64,000 nucleotides of DNA from Deltaproteobacteria bacterium (lineage in GTDB: Bacteria; Myxococcota; JACPTQ01): the NCBI GenBank assembly GCA_016192705.1, contig JACPTQ010000022.1:1-64000 (forward strand). Reading direction: 5' to 3'. The position numbers and the translations under genes were made by a program. Under the pieces are notes generated by a model that searched no databases, was not told the DNA's origin, and worked only from the letters and a program-made list of their open reading frames with translations. Shown in pieces: positions 14,268 to 48,529 of this stretch (position 1 is the first letter of the stretch; the number at the start of each line of letters is the position of its first letter).

Positions 14268-14284
14268 CAAGCGCGATGACGAAT

Positions 14285-16665: not shown

Positions 16666-16764
16666 TGACCATCGTAGGGCTCTCGGAGCCCTGATTCAAT
16701 GCCCGCTTGACGAAGATGCGCCAACATCCCATACTTCCCTACTTATTTTCACCGGGAGATAGCG

Positions 16765-31166: not shown

Positions 31167-32423
31167 ATGGCTTATTTCTCGACCACCACCTTGCGCGACG
31201 ACTACCACAACGCCATCGTCGACTGGCAGCAACGCCATTTTCGCGAGCTCGACCTCCTTACGAAAAACTGGGGGAACGCGTTTCCGGGTCAAACGCAGTT
31301 TCAACTGTGCGCAAAAATCGGTGCCCAAAAAAGCGAAGTCGTCGAACACGGTCGGTTCAAAGGCGAAAAGAAGTTCGAACGCGCGAGCGAACTTCGCGGC
31401 AACATGTTTTACCAGGCGCGCGGCATCATTAAAGCCCAGTGCTCGACCGAGTTTGGATCGATTCAGCAGCACCGCATGACGCTCGATTCCGCGATTTCCG
31501 ACGAATCAAAATACGCGGTCTTGCGCATCATGGCCGAGGAGCTACGCCACGCGTATCAAATGTTTTGGATTCTCGACAGCGACGCCTCGTGGAAGCGCGA
31601 AGGGCACACCGACGTCGCGAAAGAAACGATGGACGAGCTTCTCGCCATGGAAACCGGGCAGCACGTGCTCGACGCGTTCAACATCGATTTCGTCACCTTC
31701 CTCGACAACATCGTTTTCGCGGCCGTCATCGACCTCGTCGGCAAATACCAGCTCGACATGCAGCGCGTTTTTTCGTATGCGCCGGTCGCACGCTCCATGG
31801 GGCCGATGTACAGCGAGGAGGGGTTTCACATCGGTTCCGGCAAGCGCATTTTGCGCGAGATTTCCGTGAGCGCCGCGCGCGGCGCGGGCGACGTCTCGCT
31901 GGGTGATGTCCAGCGGTGCTTGAACCAGTGGGTGCCGCGCGGACTTGAGATGTTCGGCAACGAAATGGGCGGGTTCGTCAACGTCGAGCTCGGTTTCAAA
32001 GACCGGACGAACGGACAGGCACAACAGGAGTATTTCGAAGAAGTTTCGCACATCGTTGACGACATCAACGCTTCGATCCTGCGCGATCGCGTGCCGACAC
32101 TCGAGAAGGCGGACGCGATCGACGCCGCGCGAGCGATTGTAGCGGAGGGCGAAACCCGTCACGGCGTCAAGCGATCGGAGCTGCTCTACCTGCCTGCGCG
32201 TTCGTTTTTTCGGATGCGGGGCCCCGAAACGATCGTGTTTCGAACGAACGACGTGCACGGCCAACCGCTCGGTGCGGGCGGCGCGAATCTCGCATGGCCG
32301 GAATACGAAACGTACCTCGCGACGGTGCTTCCAACGCACTTCCTCAAGAGCCGCGAATACGCGAAATACCGCGACCGCGCGCTTCTGTATAACGGTGGGG
32401 CGATCGGTAGCGGAGGCTGGTAA
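31167..32423 (+). CDS. PaaA/BoxB-family diiron oxygenase-like protein
   Basis: 418 residues, with GGGAG before the ATG. Diiron-type motifs are visible: a first Glu helix near residue 60-110, AEELRHAYQMFW (E..RH motif, about 125-136), and a second helix set with YAPVARSMGPMYSEEGFHIGSG (E..(x)H, about 205-226). These parallel the YGPYARAM...EE.FH segment of PaaA (phenylacetyl-CoA epoxidase) and BoxB (benzoyl-CoA epoxidase). Such enzymes use O2 to epoxidise the aromatic ring of a CoA thioester with a reductase partner. No paa, box or CoA-ligase genes are nearby, so the substrate is unknown. No signal peptide; cytoplasmic. Confidence 0.78.
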   Translation: MAYFSTTTLRDDYHNAIVDWQQRHFRELDLLTKNWGNAFPGQTQFQLCAKIGAQKSEVVEHGRFKGEKKFERASELRGNMFYQARGIIKAQCSTEFGSIQQHRMTLDSAISDESKYAVLRIMAEELRHAYQMFWILDSDASWKREGHTDVAKETMDELLAMETGQHVLDAFNIDFVTFLDNIVFAAVIDLVGKYQLDMQRVFSYAPVARSMGPMYSEEGFHIGSGKRILREISVSAARGAGDVSLGDVQRCLNQWVPRGLEMFGNEMGGFVNVELGFKDRTNGQAQQEYFEEVSHIVDDINASILRDRVPTLEKADAIDAARAIVAEGETRHGVKRSELLYLPARSFFRMRGPETIVFRTNDVHGQPLGAGGANLAWPEYETYLATVLPTHFLKSREYAKYRDRALLYNGGAIGSGGW

Positions 32424-32523: not shown

Positions 32524-33180
32524 ATGCACGCTATTGCTGAGTTTTTCGAAAAAGGCGGATTTTTTATGTATATCAACGCGGTCATCTCCGTCGTGACCGT
32601 CGCGATCATCGCCGACCGCGCGATTTTTTTTCTCGGCCGCTCCAACGTAAACGCGAAGGGGTTTCTGGACCAGCTCCGAAAATTGCTGTCGGCCAACAAC
32701 GTCGATCTGGCCGTCAAACTTTGTTCAGCGACGAAGGCGCCGGAAGCGCGTGTCGCCAAGGCTGCGCTCTCGCGCCTCAATAAGGGCGAAGCGGTCGTGA
32801 CCATGGCCATAGAGGAAACCCTCGTCGATGTTACGCCCGACCTGAAGAAGCGGGTTTCAGCGCTTTGGTCGCTTGCGAACATCGGCACGCTGATCGGACT
32901 TCTCGGAACCGTCACGGGCCTCATCAAAACGTTCAGCTCGCTCGGTGTCGGTAATCCCGCGGATCGCGCGAAGACGCTCTCCGACGGGATCAGCGAGGCA
33001 ATGAACAACACCGCGGTCGGACTCGGCATTGCGGTCACATGCATGATTGGACACCTCTTCTTGAACGGCATGTCGAAGAAACGCCAGGGCGACCTCGAAG
33101 CGTTTTCACTCAAACTCGAAAATATGCTCAGCGACTCGACGCGGCATGCGGCGCACCCTGGGGAGAGTAGCAGTCGATGA
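32524..33180 (+). CDS. MotA/TolQ/ExbB proton-channel protein (AglR-like)
   Basis: 218 residues. One transmembrane helix near the N-terminus (about 13-37), a cytoplasmic loop, then two long helices. SALWSLANIGTLIGLLGTVTGLIKTF and NNTAVGLGIAVTCMIGHLFLNG are the conserved channel helices of the family, with the polar residues lining the proton path. It should form a pentamer around an ExbD dimer and use the proton gradient. The next gene overlaps its stop by 4 bases (ATGA). In Myxococcus, AglR-AglQ-AglS (one ExbB-like, two ExbD-like) is the motor for gliding. The assignment here rests on the matching one-plus-two layout and the convergent Glt-like operon. Confidence 0.88.
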   Translation: MHAIAEFFEKGGFFMYINAVISVVTVAIIADRAIFFLGRSNVNAKGFLDQLRKLLSANNVDLAVKLCSATKAPEARVAKAALSRLNKGEAVVTMAIEETLVDVTPDLKKRVSALWSLANIGTLIGLLGTVTGLIKTFSSLGVGNPADRAKTLSDGISEAMNNTAVGLGIAVTCMIGHLFLNGMSKKRQGDLEAFSLKLENMLSDSTRHAAHPGESSSR

Positions 33181-33734
33181 AGGTCTCCGCGCGCGCGCGC
33201 GGGATGCTGCGCAGAGAGCGTGAGAAGCTCGAGGAAGAAGCCGAAGAAAGCGGCGGCGAGCTCAACATCGTTCCGTTTCTCGATATCGTTATGAACATCC
33301 TCATCTTCCTGTTCGCGACGATCACGTCGATGCTCGCTGTCGGACACATCGGCGTCAATTTGCCCTCGCGGTCGAGCGGTGCCTCGGCGAGTGTTGTTGA
33401 GGATGATCCGAACAAAAAACCCGACTTGGGGTTGATGGTTGGGATTACGTCAAACGGGTTCATTCTGATCAAGCAGGGAAGAAAAGTGTTTCAGGATGAC
33501 GTCCCGGACAAGTTGCCGACGATCCCCAAAAAGGGAGATGGGACCTACGATTACGCGGCTCTCTCGAAAACTCTGGTGAAATGGAAAGGGGAGTTCCCGG
33601 AATCGAAAACGGCGATCTTAATCGCGGATTCGGAAATAACGTACGAGTTCGTTATTGGGACAATGGACGTCTTGCGAAAAGACGGAGAGAAAGAGCTGTT
33701 CCCGGTTGTGCTCTTTTCGGCGGGTTTCCAGTAA
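33177..33734 (+). CDS. ExbD/TolR-like protein (AglQ/AglS-like), first copy
   Basis: 185 residues, overlapping the ExbB-like gene by 4 bases. A short charged cytoplasmic N-terminus is followed by one transmembrane helix, NIVPFLDIVMNILIFLFAT, with the essential proton-carrying Asp in the P.LD motif. A periplasmic domain of about 130 residues follows. ExbD/TolR proteins couple proton flow to force on periplasmic partners. It is followed 3 bases later by a second ExbD-like gene, so the motor may contain a heterodimer, as in the Agl system. Confidence 0.88.
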   Translation: MKVSARARGMLRREREKLEEEAEESGGELNIVPFLDIVMNILIFLFATITSMLAVGHIGVNLPSRSSGASASVVEDDPNKKPDLGLMVGITSNGFILIKQGRKVFQDDVPDKLPTIPKKGDGTYDYAALSKTLVKWKGEFPESKTAILIADSEITYEFVIGTMDVLRKDGEKELFPVVLFSAGFQ

Positions 33735-33737
33735 GCG

Positions 33738-34313
33738 ATGGCAACCAAGATTAACGTGGAAGAGATGGAGCGCGCGCGCGAGCAGCGGCGTGCGGATCGC
33801 CGAGTCGTGCTGGCGTTAAGACGTCGCTTTGATGGCGTAGAGATCAACTATCTCAACATCACGCCGATGCTCGACATGATGACGATTCTGCTGGTCTTCC
33901 TCATCCTGAACTTCACCGCGTCGAGCACCAACGTCAACCTGTCCGACCAACTCGCGCTTCCGGGCTCAACAACCAGCGAGCCCCCCAAGGAGAGCACGGC
34001 CATTTCGGTTACTAAAACGGCAATTCTCGTCGAGGATGAGCCGGTCGTTCCGGTCGTGCGTGGAACGATCGAGGCCTCGCACAAGCGCGGTGGAGATACG
34101 GGGTTCGTTATCTTGCCACTTCTCGCGGCGCTTTCGAAGCAGTCCGAGCGAATGCGAAAACTGGCGGCGGCCAAAGACTCTGCGTTCGAACCAGAAGCCA
34201 TCATCGTCGCCGACAAGACGACGCCGTACCGGCTTCTCAATGAGGTGTTTTACACGTCCGGCGAGGCCAAGTTCGCGAAGTTTCGGCTTGTTGTTCTCGA
34301 CCGCAAAAATTAG
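33738..34313 (+). CDS. ExbD/TolR-like protein (AglQ/AglS-like), second copy
   Basis: 191 residues. The cytoplasmic N-terminus is Arg-rich, and the transmembrane helix NITPMLDMMTILLVFLI carries the proton-binding Asp. The periplasmic domain ends with IIVADKTTPYRLLNEVFYTSGEAKF, resembling the C-terminal ExbD fold. It is clearly a paralogue of the preceding gene, with low identity outside the membrane helix. Last gene of the operon; a palindromic repeat (34353-34554) separates it from the convergent Glt-like operon. Confidence 0.88.
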   Translation: MATKINVEEMERAREQRRADRRVVLALRRRFDGVEINYLNITPMLDMMTILLVFLILNFTASSTNVNLSDQLALPGSTTSEPPKESTAISVTKTAILVEDEPVVPVVRGTIEASHKRGGDTGFVILPLLAALSKQSERMRKLAAAKDSAFEPEAIIVADKTTPYRLLNEVFYTSGEAKFAKFRLVVLDRKN

Positions 34314-34352
34314 CCCGATCTGACTACCAGGCTGCTAAAAAAGTCGGTTTTG

Positions 34353-34554
34353 CAGGTTGCTGAAAAATGTCCAGATGCAAGGCAGGCGCGGAAAGCCGCG
34401 ACCGGACGCTGTACTCAGATGTACGCGGAAGGGAGCGGCGACGCGCCAACGCCATCGAGGTGAAGCGACAGGTTTGCGAAGCCGATGGTCGTTTTGCTCG
34501 AATGATATTGGTGTCGCGGCAGTGCCGCGTAGATGGGCGTTTTTCAGCAACCTG
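34353..34554. repeat. GGTTGCTGAAAAA palindromic repeat, copy B
   Basis: Left end CAGGTTGCTGAAAAATGTCC, right end GGGCGTTTTTCAGCAACCTG, so the ends are long inverted repeats. It matches copy A (27635-27763) in inverted orientation but has about 75 extra internal bases, including GCGGCAGTGCCGC. It abuts the stop codon of the GltG-like gene (34555) and sits between two convergent operons, where a folded RNA could terminate both. A shorter GCTGCTAAAAAAGTC just upstream may be a decayed partial copy. Confidence 0.78.
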
Positions 34555-36000
34555 CTACTGCGCGACTTTCTGCGGCGCGAATGATACCGAGTACGTAATC
34601 GTCGCTTCGCCCGCGTCGCCCTTAATTCTAAAGCGCCATCGGCGAACGCTCTTCCGTACGCACGACGCCATCTCGCTATCGTTCACCGTGTCCTCGTCCA
34701 GCCCCTCATCCACGACGCGTCCGCCTTCACCGATCGTAAAGCGAATCACGTATTTCCCGCGGAGGCTTGGGTTTTTCTTGAGCGAACGCTCATAACACGC
34801 CTTGATTTGCCCAAAGTTCGACTTAATCTGCGATCGAATCGTGGCTTGCGCCTCGGGATCGTCGATCGCAACCGTAGGCGCCGCACTCTTCACCTGCGGG
34901 ACCACCGCTTCTTTCGGCCCCTCTTGTGTAACCGCCGTCGTCCGCGCTCGCGTAATCTTCGGAATGTTTTTCCCGGCACTCGCCGATTCCGGTCCATCGT
35001 AACCCGTCGACAGCCGCGGCGTCGTCGAGCCCGTCGCAAACCCCGTCGAAACCTTCCCGGCCCGAGCCAGCGTCCGCTCCAGGTCTTTGTCAACGCGCTC
35101 ACGCAAAGGATCCGCCGTCGTCGCGCCCGTGTTCTCCCCAAAGGCCGAGACCAGCGCCGCCCCCACCTTTGCAACCGCCTTCTCGACCGCCTTCGCCTCA
35201 CGCGCCGAGATTTGCCGCCCCGTGCTCGTCCGCACGGTTGCGGACGGCCGCGTGCTCTCATCGTCCCGCCGTCGCGCCGTCGGACGATCGCGCGGATCCT
35301 CTCGCCGGACTTCGTCTCGCCGCGCAACCTTGGTCGGGTCCGGCGCCTTCTTCTGCTCCATCGCCTTCTTGAGCTCTGTGAGCGCCTTCGTTTCGTTGAC
35401 AAGCTTCGCGAACCGCTCTTCCTGAATCAGATGGGCCGGCTTCTTTTCCATCTCGCTCGCAATGATCAAGAAGCCAAAATGAAAGACGAACGAGCACATG
35501 ATGATTGACGCGAAGATCCAGTCGATCGTTTCCCAAATCCCGCCGCGCGCGAGCTTCGGCAACTGCGGACGCATGGGCGCGGCCGGCGCGGAAACAAATT
35601 GAAAGAGAAACGTGACCTTCCCGACGACGACCTTCCCGCGCGACTTCTCGGACAAACGGAACGACCACAGGTCGCCCTTCTTCTCGGCCAAACTCTCGCG
35701 CCGCAACGTCGCAAAATCGACAACGCGGTCGTTGACCGAAACGCGACCCTCCATCGCGTCCGTAAATAGGAGCACGTAACCGCGGGGCGTCGACTCAAAA
35801 AGCTTGAACGATTTCGGCAACCCCGAACCGGCGAGCGAAAACGTGTTCTTGGTCTCTTCGCCAACCGAAACCGACTCGCGCTTTCGAAAAATGCTTTCGC
35901 CGACAATCTTGCCGGCATCAATCACACCGACGCGAAGGACTTTCGGCTCGCGCCTTTGGGCGTCGCCACTTTCGCCTGCAGTTGCTCCCGTGCCATTCAC
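34555..36000 (-). CDS. GltG-like protein: FHA-like N-domain, membrane helix, AgmX/PglI C-domain
   Basis: 481 residues from GTG 36000, with AGGAGG 7 bases upstream. Residues about 20-125 form a beta-rich, FHA-like cytoplasmic domain (KVLRVGVIDAGKIV...SVNDRVVDF). One transmembrane helix (about 160-182) is followed by a charged, helical periplasmic stretch. The C-terminal domain (about 385-480) has IKSNFGQIKACYERSLKKNP, then GKYVIRFTIGEGGRV and CVRKSVRRWRF: the TonB-like domain of AgmX/GltJ, GltG and PglI. In Myxococcus, GltG spans the inner membrane and links the Agl motor to outer-membrane parts. It is the last gene of the operon. Confidence 0.82.
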   Translation of the reverse strand: MNGTGATAGESGDAQRREPKVLRVGVIDAGKIVGESIFRKRESVSVGEETKNTFSLAGSGLPKSFKLFESTPRGYVLLFTDAMEGRVSVNDRVVDFATLRRESLAEKKGDLWSFRLSEKSRGKVVVGKVTFLFQFVSAPAAPMRPQLPKLARGGIWETIDWIFASIIMCSFVFHFGFLIIASEMEKKPAHLIQEERFAKLVNETKALTELKKAMEQKKAPDPTKVARRDEVRREDPRDRPTARRRDDESTRPSATVRTSTGRQISAREAKAVEKAVAKVGAALVSAFGENTGATTADPLRERVDKDLERTLARAGKVSTGFATGSTTPRLSTGYDGPESASAGKNIPKITRARTTAVTQEGPKEAVVPQVKSAAPTVAIDDPEAQATIRSQIKSNFGQIKACYERSLKKNPSLRGKYVIRFTIGEGGRVVDEGLDEDTVNDSEMASCVRKSVRRWRFRIKGDAGEATITYSVSFAPQKVAQ

Positions 36001-36011
36001 GCTACATCCTC

Positions 36012-36368
36012 CTAGAACGGGGCCTTGCGGACCGCCTCAACTATCTTGGGAACGAAGGTCCTCTTCATCAACAGCCCCTCGAAATTCAAACTGGTTCGCG
36101 GCAAAATGTAAAACGCCTCCGGCTTTTGGATTGTGCCGCGCACAGTATCGCCCTTATCGATCTTCAAAACAAACTTCGGCTTGGGTCCCTTGGCTTTGCC
36201 CTTCCCGCCCTTTGCCGCGCCCTTCGCGGCCGCCACCCCCTTCCCTTTCTTTCCGCCTTCCTTCTTCTGAGCCACGGCGCTGCCACCCAAGAGGACCAGG
36301 AAAAAGGCGACACAAATCGCCACGACCCCGCATCGCCGGAGACCTCGACTCTTCGCCAACGTTTTCAT
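36012..36368 (-). CDS. Small secreted Lys/Gly/Ala-rich protein (GltF-like by position)
   Basis: 118 residues, overlapping the TPR lipoprotein stop by 4 bases. It has a strong signal peptide (about 1-33, cleavage after AVAQ), a Lys/Gly/Ala-rich stretch (about 35-65), then a compact C-terminal segment, FYILPRTSLNFEGLLMKRTF, followed by VPKIVEAVRKAPF. Its size and position between GltE-like and GltG-like genes match GltF of the Myxococcus gliding operon. The similarity is by context and a short motif only. Confidence 0.6.
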   Translation of the reverse strand: MKTLAKSRGLRRCGVVAICVAFFLVLLGGSAVAQKKEGGKKGKGVAAAKGAAKGGKGKAKGPKPKFVLKIDKGDTVRGTIQKPEAFYILPRTSLNFEGLLMKRTFVPKIVEAVRKAPF

Positions 36369-37939
36369 TTGTCCTTCGTCCTCACCTTACGCCCCTCGAC
36401 CGGCGTCCCCTCGTCCGAGCCCGCCGAGCCACCGCGCTTCAGCTTCTTCTCGCCTGCCTTTTCCGCGTCATCAGCCTTCTTCTTCTTCGCCGCTTCATCC
36501 GCAGCCTTTTTCTTTTCAGCGGTGTCATCATCGGCCTTCTTCTTTGCCGCATCATCCGCCGATTTCTTCTTCGCCTCCTCACGCGCTTTTTTCGTCGCCG
36601 CCGCCTTATCACGCCTCTCCTTGGCGTCCTTCTTTCGCTTTTCAATCTTAAGCCTTTTGTCCGCCTCCTGCACGTAACGATCGACCGGGTCATCCTTATC
36701 GAGCTTCGCCCCAGCCTCCCCCTTGTACCGCCGAAACTCCTGGATCGCCCGCTCGTACCTCGCCATCGGCTCCATCCCCTTCCATTCGTGATCGAGGTAC
36801 ATGACGCCGATGTTAAATGTCGCCTCCGCGAGCCCCGGGTTCATTTTCCGGGCCTGTTCATAAAGCTCGAGCGCCTTGTCGAGCTGTTCAAGCCCTCGGT
36901 GCGCATTCCCCAAATTGACAACCGCGCGAACATAACCTGGCCGAAACGCCAACGCCTTTTCAAGCAGCGAAACCGCCCCTTTGAAGTCCTTCTTCTCAGT
37001 TAAGAGCACGGCCAAATTATTGAGAACCTCTGGAAAATCTCCCCGCAGCGCGATCGCCTCCCGAAACGCCGCGATGGCCGCGTCCTTGTTGTCAACCTTC
37101 AAATACGAAAGCGCGAGTGCCTGATGAATCGCCGCGCTTCGTCGATATCCCGCGGCAAACTTCTTCTCATTTTCGCGGTCGATCGTGTCAGCGTTTTGAA
37201 ACGCGAATATCGCGAGCTCTGTCTTTCCTTGACGATAAAAAACGGCCCCCATGTTCATGATGGCGCCGATGTTGCGCTCGTCCTTTCGTAACGCCGACTT
37301 GGCGAGCGCAACCGCACCGTCCGAATCGCCCACGCGGATTTTCCATTTCCCGAGCAGATTCACCAGGTCCAGCGATTTTGGATTCTTCGCAACCAGCACA
37401 TCGACAAAACGAACAGCCTCCGCGGCGCCGCGCCGTTTCGCCTGTTGATTCGCAAGAGCCTCGGCCGCCGGCAAAAAGTCGCCCTTCGCCCGAAGCGCCG
37501 AGCGATACGCCTCCTCGGCGAGCCCGTTTTCGCCCGTTCGCTCGTACAAAACGCCGAGGTTGAAATGCGCGTGCGGCAAGTCGGGGTTTCGCTCCGCAAG
37601 CCGCTTAAACGCGTCGATCCCCTTCTTCGCGTCCTCGAGCCCCGCCTTCGTCGCCTCGGTGAACTCCGCCGAAACCGCCTCACCAATCGGAGGTTCAACT
37701 TTGGCGGGCGGCTCGTCGACCGGCGCGCCCGCATCGACAGTTGCCCTTTCAACAGTTGCAACCGGAAGAGCCACACCCGAATCCGGTAGCGGTGTTACTT
37801 CCATGACCGTTGTCCCTCGCGCGCCAGCGTCGACGAAAACGGCGTCCGCCCCAACGGTCGGCGTATCCGGCTTTTTCTCGACCCCACTGCACCGCACCAA
37901 ACCCGCCGCGAGCACACCTATGACCACCCACCGGCTCAT
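36365..37939 (-). CDS. GltE-like TPR lipoprotein
   Basis: 524 residues from ATG 37939. A longer frame to 38062 overlaps the upstream gene by 71 bases and lacks a signal peptide. The signal peptide has a lipobox ending LVRC (residue about 17). TPR pairs fill about 85-390 (e.g. PHAHFNLGVLYERTGENGLAEEAYRSAL, given here as PHAHFNLGVLYERTGENG then LAEEAYRSAL). The C-terminal 100 residues are a Lys/Ala/Asp/Glu-rich helix that is probably coiled. No clear ribosome-binding site is seen. Myxococcus GltE is also a TPR lipoprotein placed between GltD and GltF, and it assembles the trans-envelope gliding complex in the periplasm. Confidence 0.78.
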   Translation of the reverse strand: MSRWVVIGVLAAGLVRCSGVEKKPDTPTVGADAVFVDAGARGTTVMEVTPLPDSGVALPVATVERATVDAGAPVDEPPAKVEPPIGEAVSAEFTEATKAGLEDAKKGIDAFKRLAERNPDLPHAHFNLGVLYERTGENGLAEEAYRSALRAKGDFLPAAEALANQQAKRRGAAEAVRFVDVLVAKNPKSLDLVNLLGKWKIRVGDSDGAVALAKSALRKDERNIGAIMNMGAVFYRQGKTELAIFAFQNADTIDRENEKKFAAGYRRSAAIHQALALSYLKVDNKDAAIAAFREAIALRGDFPEVLNNLAVLLTEKKDFKGAVSLLEKALAFRPGYVRAVVNLGNAHRGLEQLDKALELYEQARKMNPGLAEATFNIGVMYLDHEWKGMEPMARYERAIQEFRRYKGEAGAKLDKDDPVDRYVQEADKRLKIEKRKKDAKERRDKAAATKKAREEAKKKSADDAAKKKADDDTAEKKKAADEAAKKKKADDAEKAGEKKLKRGGSAGSDEGTPVEGRKVRTKDK

Positions 37940-37991
37940 ACGAATAAGACGGATGATTGCGCCATACGATCTCTTTGGGCTCGCCCCCAAC

Positions 37992-40900
37992 TTATTTCTC
38001 CTTCGGGCGCTTTGCCCCGGGTCCTTCTTGCGGCGTCCGCGGCGACACCTCAAGCCCCACATCAGCTCCGAGTTCCGTCTCGAGCATGACCTTCTCGTCC
38101 TTCACAACGCGAAACTCCGTCGGCCGCACCTTCGCGCGCGTCTCCATCGCGAGTTTGACCCACCGGCTCTTCACGCCGAACTTGTTCGCGGTGTCGATGA
38201 CCTTCGTGTAAAAGCCGATCGCGTCGTCCTCGAATTTATCCGCGCGCTTCCGCATTTGCGCCGAAAACTCTTCGCACGCCTCGGGCCCAAGCCCCGTCGG
38301 GCACGGCGCGAGCGCAAGCTCGTCCGCAAACTGATTGTACAAAAGCCCCTGGCGATACCGAGACGCGAGAACCCACTCGACCGACAAATACCGCGTAACC
38401 TCTTCATAAGCCCCGTCGAGCTCCTTCACGACCTTTGCCTTCGCGTTCAACTTCTTGATGAAGTCCTTCAGCTTGCCCGCCATCTTCATCACTTGAAACG
38501 TTTGATACCGGTCTTCGAGCGCGACAAACTTCGCCTCGGCGGCAAAATTCGACGCGGGCAACGTGCCATGTCCAATTCTCTGGCGCGCATACTCCTTCAA
38601 TATGTTCGCGTAACCGCGCTTCGCGTCGTACGTTCGCCCCTGCTTCTCGTAAGCCTTCGCGATGCGCCACGCCGCCTCGACCGCCGGCTGCGCGAACGCC
38701 CCGTCCGACCCGTACCTCGAAATGAAATTTGAAAACGTGCGAATCGCTCCCGACCAATCTTTCCCCTTCTCGCGAACGAGCCCCGCACGAAAGTACATCG
38801 CTGGCCCCTTCGGCAATTCGGCCGCCGCCTGCTTCATCTCCGGAAACTTCTTCAAATACCCATCAAGGTCTCGGTATTCATTCGCGTACTTCTCGTACAT
38901 CTCAGCCGCGCGCGGGTAATCTTGATTATTTTCAAGTCCCTGCGCGCCAAACGCGAGCGCGAACGGCTGCCACCGCGACCCCGGATACTGCGTGCCGAGC
39001 TTTCGCCAGCTGTCGATCGCCTTCTCGACGTTGTAAAACAGCATCGAATTCACGCCGATGCGGTGCAGCGAAAAATCGACGCTCTCCGATTTCGGGTACT
39101 CGTTAACGACGCGCTCGTAAACCTTCGTCGCCGACTCATACTTCGCGAGCTTTTCGTAGTTTCGCGCGACCCGGAAAAGCGCCGTTGGCGCATATTCGTT
39201 TTTTGGGTCCTCGGCCACGAGCGACAGGTACTTCTTGGCCGCGTCGTCGAACCTCCCTTGCTTTTCGAGCTCCTCGCCCCCCTTGAACTTTGCGCCCAAG
39301 TAAAACACCTGCAGGTCTTTTCCGAGATCCTTGCGAGACCCGCCGCGCGAAACCTGCATCGCAAGGAGCTTTCGCGCCCACTCTTCGCCGGCCCCCCAGT
39401 TTCCAACCAGCCGATAACTTTCGATGATGAGCTTTGCCGCGTTCTCGGCCTCGACGGTCGTCGGATGCTGCGTCGCGATTCGCTCAAACCGTCGCCGCGC
39501 TTCGTCGAAGTGCTTGTACTTAAAAAACCACTCGGCCGCGAGATACCCGACCGTCGGCACGCGCTCCGACTTCGGCACGATCGTCGCGAACAGATCGCGC
39601 GCCTTGATCCCGTCCATCACAACATCCGGGATGGCATCTGGCCCCGGACCACCCTCAAGCGCTTTCCCATCCTTTGTCTGTTGCGGGTGCCCGCGCTTCT
39701 CCATCTTCTTATTCGCGACGAGCTGCTCAATCCGCCGGTCAAGCGCAAGCGTTACGTTATAAGCCGCATCGGCTCGGTGCTTCTCGCCCGCATTCGTGTC
39801 ACGCACGCGCACAAATCCGGCCGCCGCCTTGTCGTAGTCACCTGACCAAAAGTAACACTCTGCGAGCGAAAACAGCAGATCGTAAAACTGCGCCGAGTGC
39901 GGGAACCGCTCGATGTACTTCTCGTACGCCACGGCCGCGAATCCGTACTCGCTCCGCGCCTTCGTCCATCGCGCGTCGGCCAGCGCGTCCCCCGCCTTCG
40001 CGAGCGCTTCCGCTTCCTTCTTGATGTTCCGGCCTTCGCTGTGGTGGTACCGCGCCGCCGTGATGAGCGACTCCTCGACGAGCTCCCGCGCCTTTTCGAT
40101 GGCACCCGTGTCACCGCGGTTTTTCTCGGCCCACTCGCTCCCCTGTTTGTACCGGTCAAAAATATTCTCACGCTCTTTCATCGCAAGCGCCTGCGTCTCC
40201 GGCTTGTCGTCGCGCGATTCGAGCGCCTTCACGAGCGCCGCTTGAATGAGCGGATTGCGCGGATGCAGCGGGTACGCCGCGAGCACTTGCGTATACGCCT
40301 GGACCGCTTCCGCGTGCCGATTCTGTTTCGCGAGGTTTTCGCCGAGCTTCGCAAAGATCTCCTGGATGTACGGCTTCCCGGCGAGGCGCTTCTGCGCGTA
40401 CGCCCACGCCCGCGAAACCGACATCGGAATCTGCTCGCCGCACTGCCCGTTTTTGCAGACCGACCCCTCCTGACAATCCCCATCTGCTTTGCAAACGCCC
40501 GAGATGCAGTAACCCTCAACACACTGGCGCCCCGCCGAACACGTCAGATCGACGCTACACGGCCACCTTTCCTCGCCAAACGAGATGGCCATGTACTGAA
40601 CGGTCTCCGCCCGCATGTCGCTCCCGGCTTCGCCCTTTTCAGCCGCCATCTTGTCCGACAGGTCAAGGAGGTCCGCGAAATATTTGATCGCTGAGTGAAA
40701 ATCGTCGTCGCGGTAGTACGACCATGCGAGTTTATAAAGGGCCTTGTCATAAAGGATGTGGTCCGTGAAGCCGAGCATCCGCGAGTAGGCGTCGATCGCT
40801 TCCTTCAGCTTCCCGGAGTCAAAGAACTGTTCGCCGAGCCGCATCCACGCCTCAGCGACGAATTTCGATTTCGGGTATTTGCGCACGAGCTCGTTGAAAA

Positions 40901-41756
40901 CCTCGACCGCTTCTTTTTCTTCCGCTTGTTCGACCAAGCAGTAACCCAAAATGTAGTAAACGCCGTCGAGCACAGAAAACCGCGGGAATTTGTTGATGAT
41001 CCGCTGCGTGAGTTCGATGGTGCGCTCGAATCGCTTGCGCGGCGGCTGCGGGTAATCGGGCTCCTTGGGCTCGACCTTAAGCTTCTTTTCTTTGAAAAGG
41101 CGAACTTGCTCGTCGTACGCTTTTGAAATTCGCTCGACGTCTTGGCGGTACGCCTCGCGCGCGACTTCGGCTTCCGCTTCGGACCGCTCAAAGTAAAGCT
41201 CCGCAAGGCGAAACATGACGTCGGGTGTGTACTGCGCGTTGTCGGGGTAGTCCTTTATGAATCGCTCAAACCGCGCAATGGCATCATCGCGGCGCCTCTT
41301 CTCCTCGGCCTCAAGGACCTTGAGTTCCTTCTCAAAAGTGTCTTCGAGCCGCTTCTTGCGTTCACTGTATTTCGCTTCAATGATGCCGCGAACTTCGCCG
41401 TTATACGATTTTGTTTCATCTTGAAACCGACCGAGCGCCTCGCGCATCTCTTTCAACCCTTCGCGCCGCTCCGGCGTGTCGGGAAGCGACTCGGGCGTCA
41501 CAATGCGCGGCACCGACTTAACAGGGAGTGCGCCCGCCCCCGCATCCGCATCCGCTGGGGATTTCAACGCAGGGGCGCCAAGCCGCGAAGGCGCAGCGGA
41601 GGCATCCTCCCTTGGCGTCTCCGCATCTTTGCGTTTAACCTCTTCCCCCGCATCCACCGCGGCTTTGGGCACCGCCGCGCTCCCAAGCCGCATGCGCACG
41701 CCGCCATCAACATCCGCGCCAAAGGCCAACGCGACGAACAACAAGGCCGACGTCAC
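37992..41756 (-). CDS. GltD (AgmU)-like giant TPR protein
   Basis: 1,254 residues, close to the size I recall for Myxococcus AgmU/GltD. GTG 41756 overlaps the upstream stop (GTGA). A signal peptide is followed by an Ala/Pro/Asp linker containing a palindromic repeat (41559-41640), then a charged coiled-coil region and many TPR-like pairs throughout (GxxxxxAxxxYxxxLxxYP style, e.g. RNYEKLAKYESATKVYERVV). Around residues 400-440 is a Cys-rich insertion with eight Cys, CSVDLTCSAGRQCVEGYC and C..DGDC..GSVCKNGQC. TPR proteins of this kind scaffold the motility complex in the periplasm. The Cys pattern implies an oxidising compartment. Confidence 0.8.
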   Translation of the reverse strand: MTSALLFVALAFGADVDGGVRMRLGSAAVPKAAVDAGEEVKRKDAETPREDASAAPSRLGAPALKSPADADAGAGALPVKSVPRIVTPESLPDTPERREGLKEMREALGRFQDETKSYNGEVRGIIEAKYSERKKRLEDTFEKELKVLEAEEKRRRDDAIARFERFIKDYPDNAQYTPDVMFRLAELYFERSEAEAEVAREAYRQDVERISKAYDEQVRLFKEKKLKVEPKEPDYPQPPRKRFERTIELTQRIINKFPRFSVLDGVYYILGYCLVEQAEEKEAVEVFNELVRKYPKSKFVAEAWMRLGEQFFDSGKLKEAIDAYSRMLGFTDHILYDKALYKLAWSYYRDDDFHSAIKYFADLLDLSDKMAAEKGEAGSDMRAETVQYMAISFGEERWPCSVDLTCSAGRQCVEGYCISGVCKADGDCQEGSVCKNGQCGEQIPMSVSRAWAYAQKRLAGKPYIQEIFAKLGENLAKQNRHAEAVQAYTQVLAAYPLHPRNPLIQAALVKALESRDDKPETQALAMKERENIFDRYKQGSEWAEKNRGDTGAIEKARELVEESLITAARYHHSEGRNIKKEAEALAKAGDALADARWTKARSEYGFAAVAYEKYIERFPHSAQFYDLLFSLAECYFWSGDYDKAAAGFVRVRDTNAGEKHRADAAYNVTLALDRRIEQLVANKKMEKRGHPQQTKDGKALEGGPGPDAIPDVVMDGIKARDLFATIVPKSERVPTVGYLAAEWFFKYKHFDEARRRFERIATQHPTTVEAENAAKLIIESYRLVGNWGAGEEWARKLLAMQVSRGGSRKDLGKDLQVFYLGAKFKGGEELEKQGRFDDAAKKYLSLVAEDPKNEYAPTALFRVARNYEKLAKYESATKVYERVVNEYPKSESVDFSLHRIGVNSMLFYNVEKAIDSWRKLGTQYPGSRWQPFALAFGAQGLENNQDYPRAAEMYEKYANEYRDLDGYLKKFPEMKQAAAELPKGPAMYFRAGLVREKGKDWSGAIRTFSNFISRYGSDGAFAQPAVEAAWRIAKAYEKQGRTYDAKRGYANILKEYARQRIGHGTLPASNFAAEAKFVALEDRYQTFQVMKMAGKLKDFIKKLNAKAKVVKELDGAYEEVTRYLSVEWVLASRYRQGLLYNQFADELALAPCPTGLGPEACEEFSAQMRKRADKFEDDAIGFYTKVIDTANKFGVKSRWVKLAMETRAKVRPTEFRVVKDEKVMLETELGADVGLEVSPRTPQEGPGAKRPKEK
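41559..41640. repeat. CGCAAAGGCGC palindromic repeat, in-frame copy 2
   Basis: TTTCAACGCAGGGGCGCCAA on one side and TTGGCGTCTCCGCATCTTTG on the other, about 82 bases, inside the N-terminal linker of the GltD-like gene. It is inverted relative to the gene compared with copy 1 (14631-14708), yet still leaves an open frame. Confidence 0.7.
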
Positions 41757-44152
41757 GGCTTCTTCTTCTCCTTGCTCTCGGCCGCCGCGGCGTCGTCGTC
41801 TTCGGAGCGAAGTTCCTTAAAGTCCTTTTCGAGCGTCTTCATTTCGCGTTCCCGGTCTTGGAGCGTCCCCGTATACTTCTTGCTGTTGTCTTCCTTCTTT
41901 TTCCACACGACATCGATGAGGCCAACATCCGCCTCGACGACCAGATCACCAATTCGGCGCCGCACGCTGTCGAACGTCTCGTGCGCGACCTTTCCCGCGA
42001 GCGTCTCAGATTCTCCGGAATACCTCTTGCTTTCGCGGCGAAACTTCCAAACTTCCTTCCGCTCCGCGTTGACGCGCGCCTGGAGCCCTATCACTTTCTT
42101 CTCAACCTCGCGACGCAGCCGCGATTGAAACTCGCGCAGCCGCAACGACAGAGTGTCCATCGTCGTTCGATCGTCGTCAGCCTTCTCGGCGAGCCGCGCC
42201 GCTTCTCCCGACAACCTCGACCGAAGCTGCCGCAAAAAAGCCTGCTCACCCGCAAGCGCCTCCTTCAGTTTCTCGCGAACATTCGCGTCTTCCGCGGCAT
42301 TGTCTTCAAGCGAAAGCTGCGCGATCCCACGCGCCGTTTCTTTACGCGCCGTTTCGATTTCGCGGATCATTTCGCGAATTGTCTTTTGCTCAAGGTCGAT
42401 CTGCGAAATAAAAATGCGCTCTTGGTCCTCCGATATGCCGCGCGACTTCTTTGTGTCGTTGAAATACTTAACGAGCGCGACAACTTGGGCGAGTCTTCCC
42501 TCAAGCTCGAACAGGAGCCGAAACAGCTCGTGGTCCTGTTTCCGAAATCGCGCTTCGCTTGTGAGCCGTCGGTTCAAGTAATCCTCGCGCGTCTTCGGCG
42601 CGTCTTTGTATTTCTCCTCCCAAGTCGCGATTCGCTTCCGAATCTCAACGAGCTCAGCCTGCTCAGCCTCCGACAACTTTCCTGCAAACAGCTTCGCCTC
42701 AACTTGGGTGAGCTGGCGCCGCATCATCAAAATCGAATTCTCGTACCCCAGCGCCCGCGCCCGCGCATCGCGCAAATCGGGAAAGATATCGATCTTGTTT
42801 GGCGCGCGCAGACTCGACTCCAAGTGACTTAAAATCCGGTCGATTTCGCGCAGCGACGCTTCGTTGCCGCGCACGTCGGCGATGAGTGAAACCGCCTTGG
42901 ACACATCGAGGTCCTTTTTCACCCAACGTGACGCGATCTTCGGAAAGATCGCGGCGAAATCAAATTTGTCGAGGTTCTCCGTGATCATGCGCCGGAAAAA
43001 CCCGTCCGCCGCTTCGGCTTTCGAGACGAATTTCGCCATTTCGTCCTGAAGCGGCTTGTACAGTTGGATGATCTCCTCGTAAGTCTTATCCGCCTTCTCA
43101 TACTCCGCGAGGTGTAAATGGAGGTTGCCCTGGAGAAGGCGTGCCCGCGGCAACAGCGGTGAATCAGGAAGAAGCATCAGCACGTCGGCCGTTCGAAGCG
43201 CTTGCTTGAAGTTCTTCGCCTTCACGTGAACCCAGGCCAATTCAAAAAGCGATTCATCAAACACATCTGACGTGTGGCGAATTCGCGTGTAGTAATCCTC
43301 GGCCTGCTTATAGTCTTTGAGATCGTGGAAAACTCGTCCCAACGCGAGGTTCAGAAGGTCGACGACACGTCGCTCCTCCTCGGTCGCGGGCGCCAACTTG
43401 AGCGCCTCGACGGCGGCGGCGATCGCCTCCTTGTATTTTCCTTCGCGAACCCAAAGCGCAACCACATGGAATCGCGCGCGAAGCAAAAACGGCGACGCCA
43501 GAGGAATCGACAAAAACGCGTCCCGCGCGCGCCGCCCTTCTTTCACAGCGGCCTCTGTGGCCTGAGGAATATCCTCGACGATGTTGTAGAGCGCCTTCGC
43601 GCGCAAGTAAGGCGAATCGACATCGTCGCCGAGCGCGTTGGTCTTAACGAGAAGCGCCCAGAGGGTCTCGATGTCCGCGTAACGGCGCTCCTGAAACGCG
43701 AGAGCGATAAGTCGTCGAAGCGCGTCCGGCCGCCACCTTCGTCCACCCCGCTCTACGAGCTGCAAAAAATGCCGCATAGCGCCAAAATAGTTCTTGTTGC
43801 GGTAAAGCGATTCCGCCAAGTGATAAAGCGCCTCATCAAATGCGACGCTCGCCTGAAACCGCGCGTCGTCGACAATGTCCAGCAAGACGATCGCCGCTTC
43901 CGTGTAATTGCCGATCTGAAATGCCGTGAGTCCCCGAGCGAGCCGCTCGTTAACGCCCACCGTAAGCACCGAGGCGTCCGCCGCAAAGTGCTCCTTAAAG
44001 AGTCGGTCGATGTCGCTTCCAACGCTGCGGAGGTGAATATGGATGCGACCGAGTTCAACGGCCGAGCTTTGCGTTTGAGCGTACGCGGAGGCGGCGCCGA
44101 AAAGCGCCACAAGGCTAAAGACCGCCGCGCCTGATTTGCCGAGCGACTTCAC
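41753..44152 (-). CDS. GltC-like periplasmic TPR/coiled-coil protein
   Basis: 799 residues, overlapping the upstream gene by 4 bases. A signal peptide (about 1-26, cleavage after AYAQ) carries no lipobox, so it should be soluble in the periplasm. Helical TPR-like repeats fill about 60-380 ([39 protein letters not shown]). The C-terminal half (about 440-790) is a long charged coiled coil. Myxococcus GltC is likewise a soluble periplasmic TPR protein of the gliding complex. The name is assigned by architecture and operon position. Confidence 0.7.
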
Positions 44153-45216
44153 TTCGACTTAGGCGTTGGCGTTGGCGTCGGTGCTGGCGTTGGCGTCGGT
44201 GCTGGCGTTGGCGTTGGCGTCGGTGCTGGCGTTGGCGTTGGCGTCGGGGTTGGCGTTGGAGACGGTGTCGGGGTTGGAGACGGTGTCGGCTCGGTCGTCG
44301 GCTTTCCCTTCTCCTTGTCCTTGTCTTTCTCCTTGTCCTTGTCGCCCTGCACAGCCGCGCGCGACGGCTTCTTCACGTCAACTTCAAATCGGACATCGGG
44401 ACGGTCTTTCCACTGCGTCGTCAGCATCCCCTTCTCGTAGCCGACGATTTTAATGTGCGTAACTTTCCCCTCTTCCGCATGGAACTGATAGCTCGACTTG
44501 ATCCGAAACCGATACCCCTCGAGATACGACAAGAGCCCGTGCCCGCGATAAACCAAGTAAACGGCAACGCTGTGGGCACCCGGAACGATGCTCCCGTTAA
44601 AAATCTGAAACTCCTCGCGCTTCTCAAGGTCGCCCTCGGTATCAACCTTTTGGTAAATCGGCGCACCGTCGAGATGATATTGGACCTCTTCGAGCTTGAA
44701 GCTCGACCCCATTTCATTGCGATGAACGAGAATCGCCGACGCGCCCGTGATCACACCCTGAAGCACCGTCTCCTGAAGAACCAACAGCCGCGCCTTGGAC
44801 CGGTAAATCCGCTCTTTCAGCTCGTTGACCTTCTCTTCGAGCGTCCGAATCTGCACCGATTGAAAATCCTCTTTGGGCGGAAGCTCAGGCGGCTTTGTCT
44901 CGTCGGGCTTCGCGGTGGTTTTGGGCGGCGTTGTTGCAGTTGCAGGAGCGGTTGCGGGTGTTGGGGTTGGCGTTAGGGTCGGCGTGGGCGTTGGAGTCGG
45001 GGTTGGAGTCGGCGTCGGGGTGGGGCTCTTCGTCCCCGCTGTGGTCCCTGATTCCGGGGTCTTCGCACCCCCCTCGCCTTTACCCTTTGCGTCGGCCTCC
45101 TTTTCGTTATCCTTTTTCTCGCCACCGCCCGTTGTCTGCGCAATCGCCCCGAACGAAAAAACGAGCGCGGAAACAATCGGGAAAACGATCGCCGACTGAA
45201 TAGACGTAGTTTTCAT
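44149..45216 (-). CDS. Secreted PT-rich protein with coiled coil, first gene of Glt-like operon
   Basis: 355 residues from ATG 45216 (GGGGTGG upstream); a frame from 45231 adds five residues. After a signal peptide (cleavage after AIAQ) comes an acidic/Lys-rich stretch and a Pro-Thr repeat tract (about 70-105). A coiled coil follows ([20 protein letters not shown], about 128-160), then a beta-rich domain (about 160-280) with [16 protein letters not shown], reminiscent of PEGA-like or carbohydrate-binding beta sandwiches. The C-terminus is a second long PT tract (about 310-355). Similar genes in myxobacterial glt clusters are often misannotated as dihydrolipoamide acetyltransferase because of the low-complexity region. 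Function unknown. Confidence 0.7.
44160..44290. repeat. GTTGGC/GTCGGC hexanucleotide tract encoding a Pro-Thr tail
   Basis: Tandem GCGTTGGCGTTGGCGTCGGT units read on the minus strand as Pro-Thr, with some Pro-Ala and Pro-Ser, at the C-terminal end of the secreted coiled-coil protein. A second tract of the same kind lies at 44945-45030 near the N-terminus of the same protein. Confidence 0.85.
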
Positions 45217-45757: not shown

Positions 45758-47686
45758 GTGATTAAGCTCGTCATTCGAGACGACGAAGGTCGGAGCACCG
45801 TCGTTCCGATTTTGCGCGACGAAATAACGATTGGACGACGCGAAGGAAACACAATCCGGCTCACGGAGCGCAACGTTTCGCGCGACCACGCACGCCTGAC
45901 GCGTGTCGATTCCGGAGTTCTCATCGAGGATCTCGACAGCTACGGCGGCATCCGCGTCAACGGCTCAAGGATCAAAGCGAAAACTGCGCTGCGCGAAGGC
46001 GACCTCATTCAGATTGGCGACTACCAGCTCGCCATCGAGGCCGACACGAGTGAAATCAACCCGCTCGGGGGCGGACGCGATTCGTCCACGGCGCGGATGA
46101 AAAACCCGAACGCGCATGAGACGGTTCGGATCGAGTCTGCCGAGCTGGCCACTGCGTCGTCGGGCGTTGACGCCCAGGTTGAAACCAATTGGGAACCACC
46201 ACGACTCGTGGGGCTCTCGGCACCGATCGCGGGACAAACGTTTCCTCTCAAGAACGCCGAAACCGTCATTGGGCGCGTGCCCGACAACGATATCGTCATC
46301 GACGACAAGGGGCTCGCACGGCACCACGTGAAAATAATAGCGTTGGACGGAAGATGGAAAGTCATCGACCTCGGCAGCCCGACGGGCTTCACCATTAACG
46401 GTGAGGAGTTTGAGACAGCCGAGCTTCGCCAGGGCGACGAGGTGACGCTCGGGCCGGTGAAGCTGCGGTTTGAGTGGCCACCGGTGAAGGAAGAAGAGAA
46501 GAAAAATGCGGGAAACAATGGGGCGAAGGGCGCGTTGCCGTCGACGACGAAGTTGCGGGGACTTGGAGAGAAACCGAAGGAGGCGCCCAAGAGCACGAAG
46601 ATCGTCGTTGTCGGCTCGATCGTCGTGGCGATCGCGTGTGTCGTGGTGTTTGCCCTGACGCTGGGCGGTGACAAACCCGCTCCTTCACCCACTCCCGCAA
46701 CCTTGTCCGCAACCGCTCCCGCAGGGGATTTCAACGCAGAGGCGCAAAGCCGCAAAGCCGAAAAAACAGCTGCTTCTCCTCGTGGCGACTCCGCGCCTTT
46801 GCGTCAAATCCATGCTTCCGCGCCCGCTACGCTCTCTCCACGCGACGCCGATGACCGCCAATCAAAACTCTCAATCGCTAAACGCGACATGGAGGCCGAA
46901 CGCTGGGAAGACGCCGTTCGCGTGCTTTACCCATGGGTCCTCGCCCATGGCGACGACAAAGAAATCCGTGCGCTGTACGACGAAGCCCGACGTGAGGATG
47001 CAGCGTCACGAACGTTTCAGCTTCTCAAGTCCGCGTTTGGACGTGAATCATGGGGCGAATTTGTTTTACTCGCGAAGCGCATCCCGGACGACAGTCGCTA
47101 TCGACGCGAGATGATGTTGTTCGTCGGCAAACTTTACGAACGCGCCGAAGGTGCCGTGGCCGCGGGTGCGAGCGACCGCGCCATCATGCTGATTCAGCAG
47201 ATACTGCGAGCCGATCCAACCAACGACCCCGCAAAGCGACTCCTCGCCGATCTCGGGAAACGCCTCGATGCGCGAGCGGCTGAAGCCGCAACTCCGATCC
47301 GACGCCGGGCAACCGCACCCGCACCCGCTCCCGCTTCCGCAACCGCTCCCGCTCCCGCAACCGGTTCCGCAACCGCAACCGCTCCAGCAACCGCTTCCGC
47401 GCGTGAGGGCGCCCGCGCAAACGATGCGGCGCAAGTCCCGGCCCTCGAGAAGGCGGGGCTCGACGCCCTCTGGAACGATCCGCCCACGGCCATCGAGAAA
47501 TTTAACGCCGTCCTCAAGATCGCGCCAAACCGCGCCGTTACGCACCGCTTGCTCGGCGTCGCCTACGCCAATCTCGAAAAACGTGAACTCGCGCTCCACT
47601 TTTACAAGCGTTACCTTGCGCTCGCCCCCGACGCGCGCGATCGACCTTCTGTGGAGCGGGCCATCGAAAAGTTGGAGGCGCACTGA
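45758..47686 (+). CDS. Double-FHA membrane protein with TPR C-terminus
   Basis: 642 residues from GTG 45758. Two FHA domains bind phospho-Thr peptides: the first (about 1-88) has TIGRREGNTIRL, NVSRDHARL and VNG; the second (about 145-240) has VIGRVPDNDIVI, LARHHVKI and INGEEF. One transmembrane helix follows (about 285-307), then an Ala/Pro linker holding a palindromic repeat (46731-46808). The rest is TPR-like pairs, with a Pro/Ala tract in between and a final TPR (LDALWNDPPTAIEKFNAVLK). The FHA pair faces the cytoplasm, where a Ser/Thr kinase could write its ligand; the TPR part is outside. No ribosome-binding site is obvious. Confidence 0.88.
   Translation: MIKLVIRDDEGRSTVVPILRDEITIGRREGNTIRLTERNVSRDHARLTRVDSGVLIEDLDSYGGIRVNGSRIKAKTALREGDLIQIGDYQLAIEADTSEINPLGGGRDSSTARMKNPNAHETVRIESAELATASSGVDAQVETNWEPPRLVGLSAPIAGQTFPLKNAETVIGRVPDNDIVIDDKGLARHHVKIIALDGRWKVIDLGSPTGFTINGEEFETAELRQGDEVTLGPVKLRFEWPPVKEEEKKNAGNNGAKGALPSTTKLRGLGEKPKEAPKSTKIVVVGSIVVAIACVVVFALTLGGDKPAPSPTPATLSATAPAGDFNAEAQSRKAEKTAASPRGDSAPLRQIHASAPATLSPRDADDRQSKLSIAKRDMEAERWEDAVRVLYPWVLAHGDDKEIRALYDEARREDAASRTFQLLKSAFGRESWGEFVLLAKRIPDDSRYRREMMLFVGKLYERAEGAVAAGASDRAIMLIQQILRADPTNDPAKRLLADLGKRLDARAAEAATPIRRRATAPAPAPASATAPAPATGSATATAPATASAREGARANDAAQVPALEKAGLDALWNDPPTAIEKFNAVLKIAPNRAVTHRLLGVAYANLEKRELALHFYKRYLALAPDARDRPSVERAIEKLEAH
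46731..46808. repeat. CGCAAAGGCGC palindromic repeat, in-frame copy 3
   Basis: TTCAACGCAGAGGCGCAAAG on the left and TCCGCGCCTTTGCGTCAAA on the right, about 78 bases, read in frame within the linker of the FHA-TPR protein (FNAEAQSRKAEK...SAPLRQ). The translated motif closely parallels that of copy 1 (FNAKAQRSKDAR...SAPLRQ). Confidence 0.75.
47311..47402. repeat. Hexanucleotide CCCGCN tract encoding a Pro/Ala/Thr linker
   Basis: CCCGCA/CCCGCT/TCCGCA/ACCGCT units encode a Pro/Ala/Thr-rich linker between TPR-like segments of the FHA-TPR protein. Same repeat class as 15361-15515. Confidence 0.8.
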
Positions 47687-47729
47687 CGGCTCTTTACGAC
47701 AACGCGCGGACAATATAAAAGCGGGTGCG

Positions 47730-48515
47730 ATGATTAGTACGCCAACGTGGGCCTGTCTCTTTATGTTCCTCGCAACCGCTGTCGCGTGCGATGCACAAGA
47801 GAACGTCAAGGTCGCGCTCGCGTCGTCGCCACGCGAGAACTTTCAACGCGGGCTTAAAGCGTACAACAAGGGCGAATGGGCGGAAGCCGAAAAATATTTT
47901 AACTACACGAAGGCGCGCGGGCACGGTGACTGGGCGGTGCTTGCGGAGATTCGCCTCGCCGACACTTACTTCGAGCGCGAACGCTACGCCGAGGCCGTCG
48001 ACGCTTACCAACTTTTCACGAAGACACACTCGACGCACCCGGAAGCCGACCATGCGACGTATCGCATCGCCCTCTCGGCGTTTCGCCAAATCCCCGACGA
48101 CTGGTTCATCCTACCGCCCGCCCACGAACGCGATCTCCGCTCGACGACCGACGCGCGCCGCGCCTTGGAGAACTACCTCGCGCGATACCCGAATGGGCGG
48201 TACGCCGCGAACGCGCGCACCGAATATCTTGAGATTCGGTCGCGTCTCATTTCGTACGAAATCTACGCCGCCGACTTTTACGCAAACCGTGCCAAGTGGC
48301 CAGCCGTTGTGCTGCGCCTTGAATTCGCGATGCGCGAATACCCGGGGATGGGACGCGACGAAGAGATTCTTTTTAAACTCGGCTCGGCCTACATCAGCAG
48401 CGGCGATTTTGGGCGCGGTGTCGAAACGCTGAAGTCGGTCATCGCGCGTTTTCCGGGTGGGCGGTATCGAAAGGCGGCTGAGAAGATCGTCGCCCGCGTC
48501 GTTCCAAAACGTTAA
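47730..48515 (+). CDS. bamD: BamD-like outer-membrane assembly lipoprotein
   Basis: 261 residues from ATG 47730; the longer upstream frame is antisense-like and lies in the previous gene. The signal peptide ends TAVAC, a plausible lipobox. Five TPR-type helical pairs follow, with the BamD/YfiO pattern: FQRGLKAYNKGEWAEAEKYF, LADTYFERERYAEAVDAYQL, PEADHATYRIALSAF, then TTDARRALENYLARYPNGRY. BamD is the essential partner of BamA for inserting beta-barrel proteins into the outer membrane. It lies 44 bases after the FHA-TPR gene and 15 bases before another TPR gene. Confidence 0.88.
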   Translation: MISTPTWACLFMFLATAVACDAQENVKVALASSPRENFQRGLKAYNKGEWAEAEKYFNYTKARGHGDWAVLAEIRLADTYFERERYAEAVDAYQLFTKTHSTHPEADHATYRIALSAFRQIPDDWFILPPAHERDLRSTTDARRALENYLARYPNGRYAANARTEYLEIRSRLISYEIYAADFYANRAKWPAVVLRLEFAMREYPGMGRDEEILFKLGSAYISSGDFGRGVETLKSVIARFPGGRYRKAAEKIVARVVPKR

Positions 48516-48529
48516 GGGGGGTTGGGCCT

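Follow-up and report, generated by a model that had tools for sequence, protein, structure and literature searches.

Three gene clusters of Myxococcus xanthus, G4, G5 and M2, have been described without an assigned function (Luciano et al., 2011, PMC3169522). The gltD homologues of this species are MXAN_4870 in G1, MXAN_3374 in nfs, MXAN_1922 in G4 and MXAN_1327 in G5, and the M2 motor, published in the same work, is formed by MXAN_3003-3005 (PMC3169522). The MXAN_1922 mutant moves normally, and normal motility was also described for the MXAN_3004 mutant (PMC3169522); MXAN_3004 is dispensable for sporulation as well, and the AglR of M2 bound neither GltG nor NfsG in two-hybrid assays (Wartel et al., PMC3858216). 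A core complex of aglRQS with gltC, gltD, gltE, gltG and one extra gene is found as a single cluster in Gammaproteobacteria, Geobacter and Fibrobacter (PMC3169522).

The DNA analyzed here, a window of 64,000 nucleotides from a genome assembly of the Myxococcota, carries a locus that likely encodes a complete third envelope machine of the Agl/Glt type, orthologous to the G4 cluster of M. xanthus together with its cognate motor M2. Nine genes were verified by NCBIfam and Pfam searches and lie where a preliminary description of the sequence had placed them: one ExbB-like and two ExbD-like genes in the AglR-AglQ-AglS layout (plus strand, 32524-34313) face a convergent Glt-like operon (minus strand, read from 45216 to 34555). 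The motor genes encode an AglR/ExbB-like channel protein of the M2 type (218 aa, 32524-33180; PF01618, 2.1e-23), an AglQ/ExbD-like protein (185 aa, 33177-33734; PF02472, 7.4e-12) and an AglS/ExbD-like protein (191 aa, 33738-34313; PF02472, 2.9e-14). The transmembrane aspartates are kept in both ExbD-like proteins of the window, as seen in the alignment, within the motifs NIVPFLDIVMN and NITPMLDMMTI, respectively. At another locus (L113, 12212-12778, plus strand), an operon-embedded AglQ of the M2 type has an asparagine at the position expected for this aspartate, and the AglS of that operon keeps the aspartate.

The gene order proposed for the facing operon, GltC-GltD-GltE-GltF-GltG, was also correct according to the NCBIfam matches and, in the case of GltD, to a blastp match with another GltD of the same genome (1.7e-44). 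Read in the direction of transcription, the operon opens with the predicted PT-rich coiled-coil protein (hereafter PT; 44149-45216, minus strand), defined by its core conservation, alignments and an AlphaFold2 model. It is followed on the same strand by a GltC-like TPR/coiled-coil protein (799 aa, 41753-44152; NF033756, 9.6e-20, and synteny), a large periplasmic GltD-like TPR protein of the G4 clade (1254 aa, 37992-41756; GltD profile and tree), a GltE-like TPR protein (36365-37939; NF033758, 2.2e-30, and synteny), a small exported GltF/CglF-like protein (118 aa, 36012-36368) and a GltG-like protein (34555-36000; NF033760, 1.1e-36). The GltF/CglF-like assignment is weak by NF033764 alone (0.003) and is backed by the kept position and by 47-70% identity to the counterparts at other loci, with about 50-60% as the general level in the phylum. 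The GltG-like protein combines an N-terminal match to the GltG profile, from profile position 204, with a transmembrane segment and a TonB-like AgmX/PglI C-terminal tail (NF033768, 4.9e-24), and no Pfam FHA match was obtained for it or for five of its orthologues.

Several features of the surroundings were recorded. Just upstream of aglR, a stand-alone gene at 31167-32423 (plus strand) encodes a protein distantly related to di-iron oxygenase subunits of the BoxB/PaaA kind (TIGR03225, 46 bits, cut-off 499). Divergent from the PT operon, the region 45758-49231 (plus strand) encodes a protein with two FHA domains and TPRs, after which come a BamD/YfiO-like and a TPR protein. The GC content is 58-60% between positions 32001 and 48000 and 61-65% elsewhere in the window, and the branches of the window AglR and GltD are also long in the trees.

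The scores of the Glt-like proteins stayed well below the NCBIfam equivalog cut-offs (71 of 450 bits for GltC, 106 of 225 for GltE, 17.5 of 90 for GltF and 127 of 650 for GltG), a first sign that the locus might encode a paralogous system. The Myxococcus orthologues of these genes scored similarly low, far below the same cut-offs, as is expected of a paralogous system. A second Glt set of the window's own genome, located on contig C73, also fell below the cut-offs, and a low score alone is therefore a weak criterion against the gliding machine.

To place the scaffold, the G4-type GltD profile was used, and it gave 1444 bits for the window protein, with 544 and 339 bits for the remaining two GltD copies in this genome; since this profile includes the window's own sequence, the GltD tree is the stronger test. 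In the tree, the window GltD grouped with the Myxococcus copy located at 2.20 Mb in a G4 clade with support of 100/100, apart from the copies at 6.15, 3.95 and 1.56 Mb. These four positions fit MXAN_1922 (G4), MXAN_4870 (G1), MXAN_3374 (nfs) and MXAN_1327 (G5), respectively, in a Myxococcus genome whose closeness to M. xanthus is taken from its gene order and from the MXAN numbers in the literature. The G4 locus of this genome runs on one strand as mglB-mglA-PT-gltC-gltD-gltE-gltF-gltG, followed by a cNMP gene, a further gene, a barrel gene and a Wza gene. This arrangement agrees with MXAN_1926 to 1915, both in the tags MXAN_1926, 1925, 1922, 1916 and 1915 and in the gap of 23 bp between the barrel and Wza genes, the same distance that separates wzpB (MXAN_1916) from wzaB (MXAN_1915) (PMC9603273). 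The G4 genes from PT to gltG correspond to MXAN_1924 to about 1919, beside mglA (MXAN_1925) and mglB (MXAN_1926).

The position of GltD also bears on the idea that the locus encodes a spore-coat device of the Nfs type or a similar sporulation machine; the preliminary description had considered a related secretion device such as Nfs. In favor of this idea, Nfs is itself paralogous to Glt and runs on an AglRQS motor (PMC3858216). The window GltD nevertheless falls outside the nfs clade, no nfsA, nfsB or nfsH was seen at the locus, MXAN_3004 can be lost without affecting sporulation and its cognate AglR did not bind NfsG (PMC3858216). The Nfs reading was rejected on the trees and the paralogue inventory and retains hardly any probability.

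The motor was assigned in the same way, with an AglR profile built from the AglR proteins that are embedded in Glt operons. In each of six genomes this profile found one match of 282-401 bits and a second one of 185-217 bits, and all others reached at most 106 bits. In the AglR tree, the window protein grouped with the operon-embedded AglRs and the Myxococcus motor at 3.50 Mb (clade support 100/99), and the sister clade contained the Myxococcus motor at 8.56 Mb and a second motor of the window's genome, on contig C51. Because the branch of the window protein is long, a second tree was computed after removal of four long rows, and the M2 clade persisted in it (support 91/89, not starred). The exact placement of the window AglR and GltD inside their clades is unsure, since both lie on long branches.

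The AglR tree also decided the case of an energy transducer of the Tol-Pal/Exb type whose TPR neighbors would be unrelated, for which the top NCBIfam names of the ExbB- and ExbD-like proteins, TolQ and TolR, could be invoked. These matches lie far below the cut-off, the TolQ and ExbB types fall outside the Agl superclade that holds the window AglR, and all of the neighbors match Glt families. This explanation was refuted by the AglR tree and its probability is negligible. The membership in the Agl/Glt family that had been proposed from the sequence was thus confirmed gene by gene, and the outcome named in advance as its refutation, namely ExbB/ExbD proteins branching with Tol or Exb and TPR proteins with no Glt matches, did not occur in the trees or the profile searches.

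Another reading takes the locus for the gliding machine of the organism itself, an orthologue of M1, G1 and G2 in which motor and transducer are neighbors, since every group B core gene, as well as gltF, was found here in the right order. The inventory of the assembly (5.21 Mb in 88 contigs, with five ExbB-type and six ExbD-type matches) argues against it. The second complete AglR-AglQ-AglS triple, on C51, belongs to the gliding AglR clade, and the set on C73, ordered as a VWA-like lipoprotein, an OMP_myx barrel, GltC, GltD, GltE and GltF, is reminiscent of a gliding set, including parts that are GltA/B-like and CglB-like. Grouping of the window AglR with the gliding AglR was rejected in the test on the AglR rows without the four long ones (p-AU 0.014), the window GltD lies outside G1, its GltG has no FHA domain and the M. 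xanthus orthologues are dispensable for gliding (PMC3169522). The gliding reading was accordingly rejected on the trees and the paralogue inventory, and it is very improbable.

The suggestion that the locus is a reduced form of the machine, made because GltA/B/H/K and GltI/J are missing from the window, was rejected as well: on C73 the genome has another set, which includes the GltA/B-like barrel and the CglB-like lipoprotein, and the genes of the window make up the full G4 composition. The alternative suggestion of an ancestral form fared better, as single-operon versions occur in many families and give the locus an ancestral look.

The window is not the only Agl/Glt-type locus of the organism, given the other sets of the genome. 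Besides the copies on C73, GltC and GltD are encoded on C27, the contig of the window, past the end of the window (about 86-94 kb; L041, 2145-9476), in a GltC-GltD-GltF set with a TPR lipoprotein; no other GltC match in the genome scores as high as the one in this set (326 bits). On contig C41 (L038, equal to C41:5000-24999), the region 10184-14108 (minus strand) encodes a full-length GltG-like protein that has a canonical FHA region at its N-terminus, then ExbB and ExbD, possibly a further motor set. Two very large lipoprotein-like proteins, encoded in the window at 1134-9395 (minus strand) and in L041 at 13985-20000 (plus strand), have similar N-termini ('VGVTLADDFNTSL' and 'CWVRLSEDFNVSL', respectively) and may represent an expanded surface-protein family.

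The PT protein has a signal peptide and a conserved core (residues 118-292) between PT-rich low-complexity flanks. Matches to the core were obtained in 151 of 195 Myxococcota genomes, usually at 50-65% identity, in a genome set where the host's order is represented by the window's own genome alone. No Pfam family was matched by the core and no matches were found in 72,556 plasmids. Among the best 80 matches in genome contigs, the titles referred to Myxococcota, to deltaproteobacteria or to unspecified MAGs, with one exception that is probably misnamed. That record (L140, BNCN01000011.1), titled 'Comamonas sp. KCTC 72670', carries an mglBA-G4 locus whose MglA is 100% identical to a Myxococcus copy, and it is probably misnamed or contaminated. 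In genome G013 (L107, 12894-15500, minus strand), the core is repeated several times in tandem in a larger second protein beside the single-domain one.

The AlphaFold2 model of the core (pLDDT 84.6) consists of a long coiled-coil helix and an eight-stranded beta domain. Compared with solved folds, the beta domain gave non-significant matches, with a transthyretin-like fold and a Bacteroides adhesin as the best ones (E 0.0037, TM 0.36). The attempt to deduce a function from the structure was dropped, as the fold matches were weak and non-significant. PT is a conserved signature subunit of the system that belongs to no known family, a view that looks new; from its operon position and signal peptide, our guess is that it may serve as an adaptor between the scaffold and the outer membrane.

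The relationship between scaffold and motor was analyzed in 37 loci fetched around PT-core matches, all arranged as PT-gltC-gltD-gltE-gltF-gltG. The whole set forms a single operon in many families, PT-gltC-gltD-gltE-gltF-aglR-aglQ-aglS-gltG, with the motor genes on the same strand between gltF and gltG, and in Myxococcus-like genomes the motor genes lie at another place. The earlier statement that these parts occupy separate loci in Myxococcus therefore stands for the gliding clusters G1, G2 and M1 and fails for G4, where PT and gltC to gltG are together and only the motor is elsewhere. The Glt order and the motor linkage recurred across Myxococcota when synteny was checked, as had been proposed. 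The convergent layout of the window was not seen at the other loci examined, where aglRQS lies between gltF and gltG or at another locus. Since the motor genes are inside the operon in many families, this layout is best taken for a rearrangement, local to the window, of genes that elsewhere make up a single transcription unit.

PT and the M2-type AglR (called at E ≤ 1e-75) also co-occur: the motor protein was found in 132 of the 151 genomes with PT and in 9 of the other 44 (Fisher p 8e-17, uncorrected for relatedness), and a number of the genomes that depart from this pattern are incomplete. The window shares the features of this group, with its GltD in the G4 clade, its AglR in the M2/operon clade and PT as the first gene. 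These results suggested that G4 and M2 form one machine, a conclusion which looks new and which draws on the single operon of several families and on the co-occurrence, and that this putative machine is conserved through most of Myxococcota. The search of the open-access literature by locus tag found neither later functional work on these genes nor a statement that M2 belongs to G4. Likewise, the pairing of the M2 AglR with the GltG of G4 is not stated in the open-access literature searched and looks new; with this GltG as the partner, the failure of the M2 AglR to bind GltG or NfsG would be simply explained.

Additionally, the neighborhood of the operon was compared. MglA is encoded directly upstream of PT at 50 of the 101 distinct loci with enough flank; the gene for MglB is adjacent too. 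A universal linkage to mglA, suggested by 29 of 37 loci in a first sample, was discarded when the wider set gave 50 of 101. As mglBA is present at only about half of the loci, it was not taken as defining, and it is absent directly upstream of the window locus. A Wza-like gene and an outer-membrane barrel gene follow gltG at 18 loci from five families (f8, f10, f12, f13 and f14); in Myxococcia the order after gltG is a cNMP gene, a further gene, wzpB and wzaB. WzpB-WzaB is an outer-membrane translocon assigned to the biosurfactant polysaccharide (BPS), and WzaB was considered 'orphan-like', with the BPS cluster 1.016 Mb away (PMC7310880). The mglA and wzpB-wzaB linkages look like a new context for G4. 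In the window's genome, contig C22 carries mglBA and contig C82 the single Poly_export (Wza-like) gene, neither linked to the window locus.

From the gene neighborhood of the relatives, MglA and MglB are the probable spatial regulator, and the cargo in Myxococcia may be the polysaccharide exported by the neighboring WzpB-WzaB translocon. A narrower form of our explanation would hence make the locus an MglA-regulated machine for an exported polysaccharide (BPS or an equivalent), comparable to Agl-Nfs with the spore coat polymer. The order after gltG in Myxococcia, the Wza relatives at the 18 loci, the orphan-like WzaB far from its BPS cluster (PMC7310880), the upstream mglBA and the Nfs precedent (PMC3858216) favor it. 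However, the Wza linkage is absent outside the five families and in the window, G4 also occurs in lineages without an adjacent exporter and the adjacency of genes does not amount to function, so this version is conceivable and rather unlikely. A fuller proposal is doubtful: G4 and M2 would form one proton-driven machine for the handling of polysaccharides under the control of MglA. This would be a third branch of Agl/Glt/Nfs, which in Myxococcia would serve the BPS-type exporter WzpB-WzaB and in other lineages would act on equivalent polymers. If it were true, MglA would have been tied to the G4 operon before its recruitment to gliding and pili.

For the G4 and M2 machine as such, a working model can be proposed by analogy with the Agl-Glt and Agl-Nfs machines. 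The AglR-AglQ-AglS-like complexes would conduct protons, and the ExbD-like subunits would couple this flow to the periplasmic TonB-like tail of GltG, which would pull or cycle the TPR scaffold of GltC, GltD and GltE. Through GltF and PT, the scaffold would then move a partner at the outer membrane, an exported polysaccharide being a plausible candidate for the cargo. In the gliding GltG, the FHA domain is a cytoplasmic phospho-dependent input; a G4 GltG without a canonical FHA domain would lack this input.

Since 2011, two M. xanthus clusters have remained paralogues without an explanation, and the phylum-wide operon and the mglBA and wzpB-wzaB linkages make their function directly testable in a tractable organism. 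This context also bears on which trait came first in the family: gliding, polysaccharide handling or control by MglA.

Compared with known systems, the machine of the window is of an uncharacterized and already published kind, G4 plus M2, here with motor and scaffold together. It shares with the M. xanthus clusters the same genes and order, orthology of AglR and GltD at the clade level and the same sub-threshold NCBIfam profile. The two M. xanthus clusters differ in lying about 1.3 Mb apart, with G4 after mglBA and before wzpB-wzaB, whereas those of the window are adjacent and convergent. The Agl-Glt gliding machine (M1, G1 and G2) has the AglRQS motor, homologues of GltC, GltD, GltE, GltF and GltG and a presumed proton-driven transmission in common with the window, which differs in the AglR and GltD clades, in a GltG without FHA, in a locus without GltA/B/H/K/I/J and in the extra PT protein. 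The Nfs machine (G3) shares the paralogous set from C to G used with an AglRQS motor, and the window differs from it in its GltD clade, in the absence of nfsA, nfsB and nfsH and in having its own dedicated motor. Finally, the core complex of Gammaproteobacteria, Geobacter and Fibrobacter resembles the window in joining aglRQS with gltC, gltD, gltE and gltG in one cluster, to which the window adds gltF and PT.
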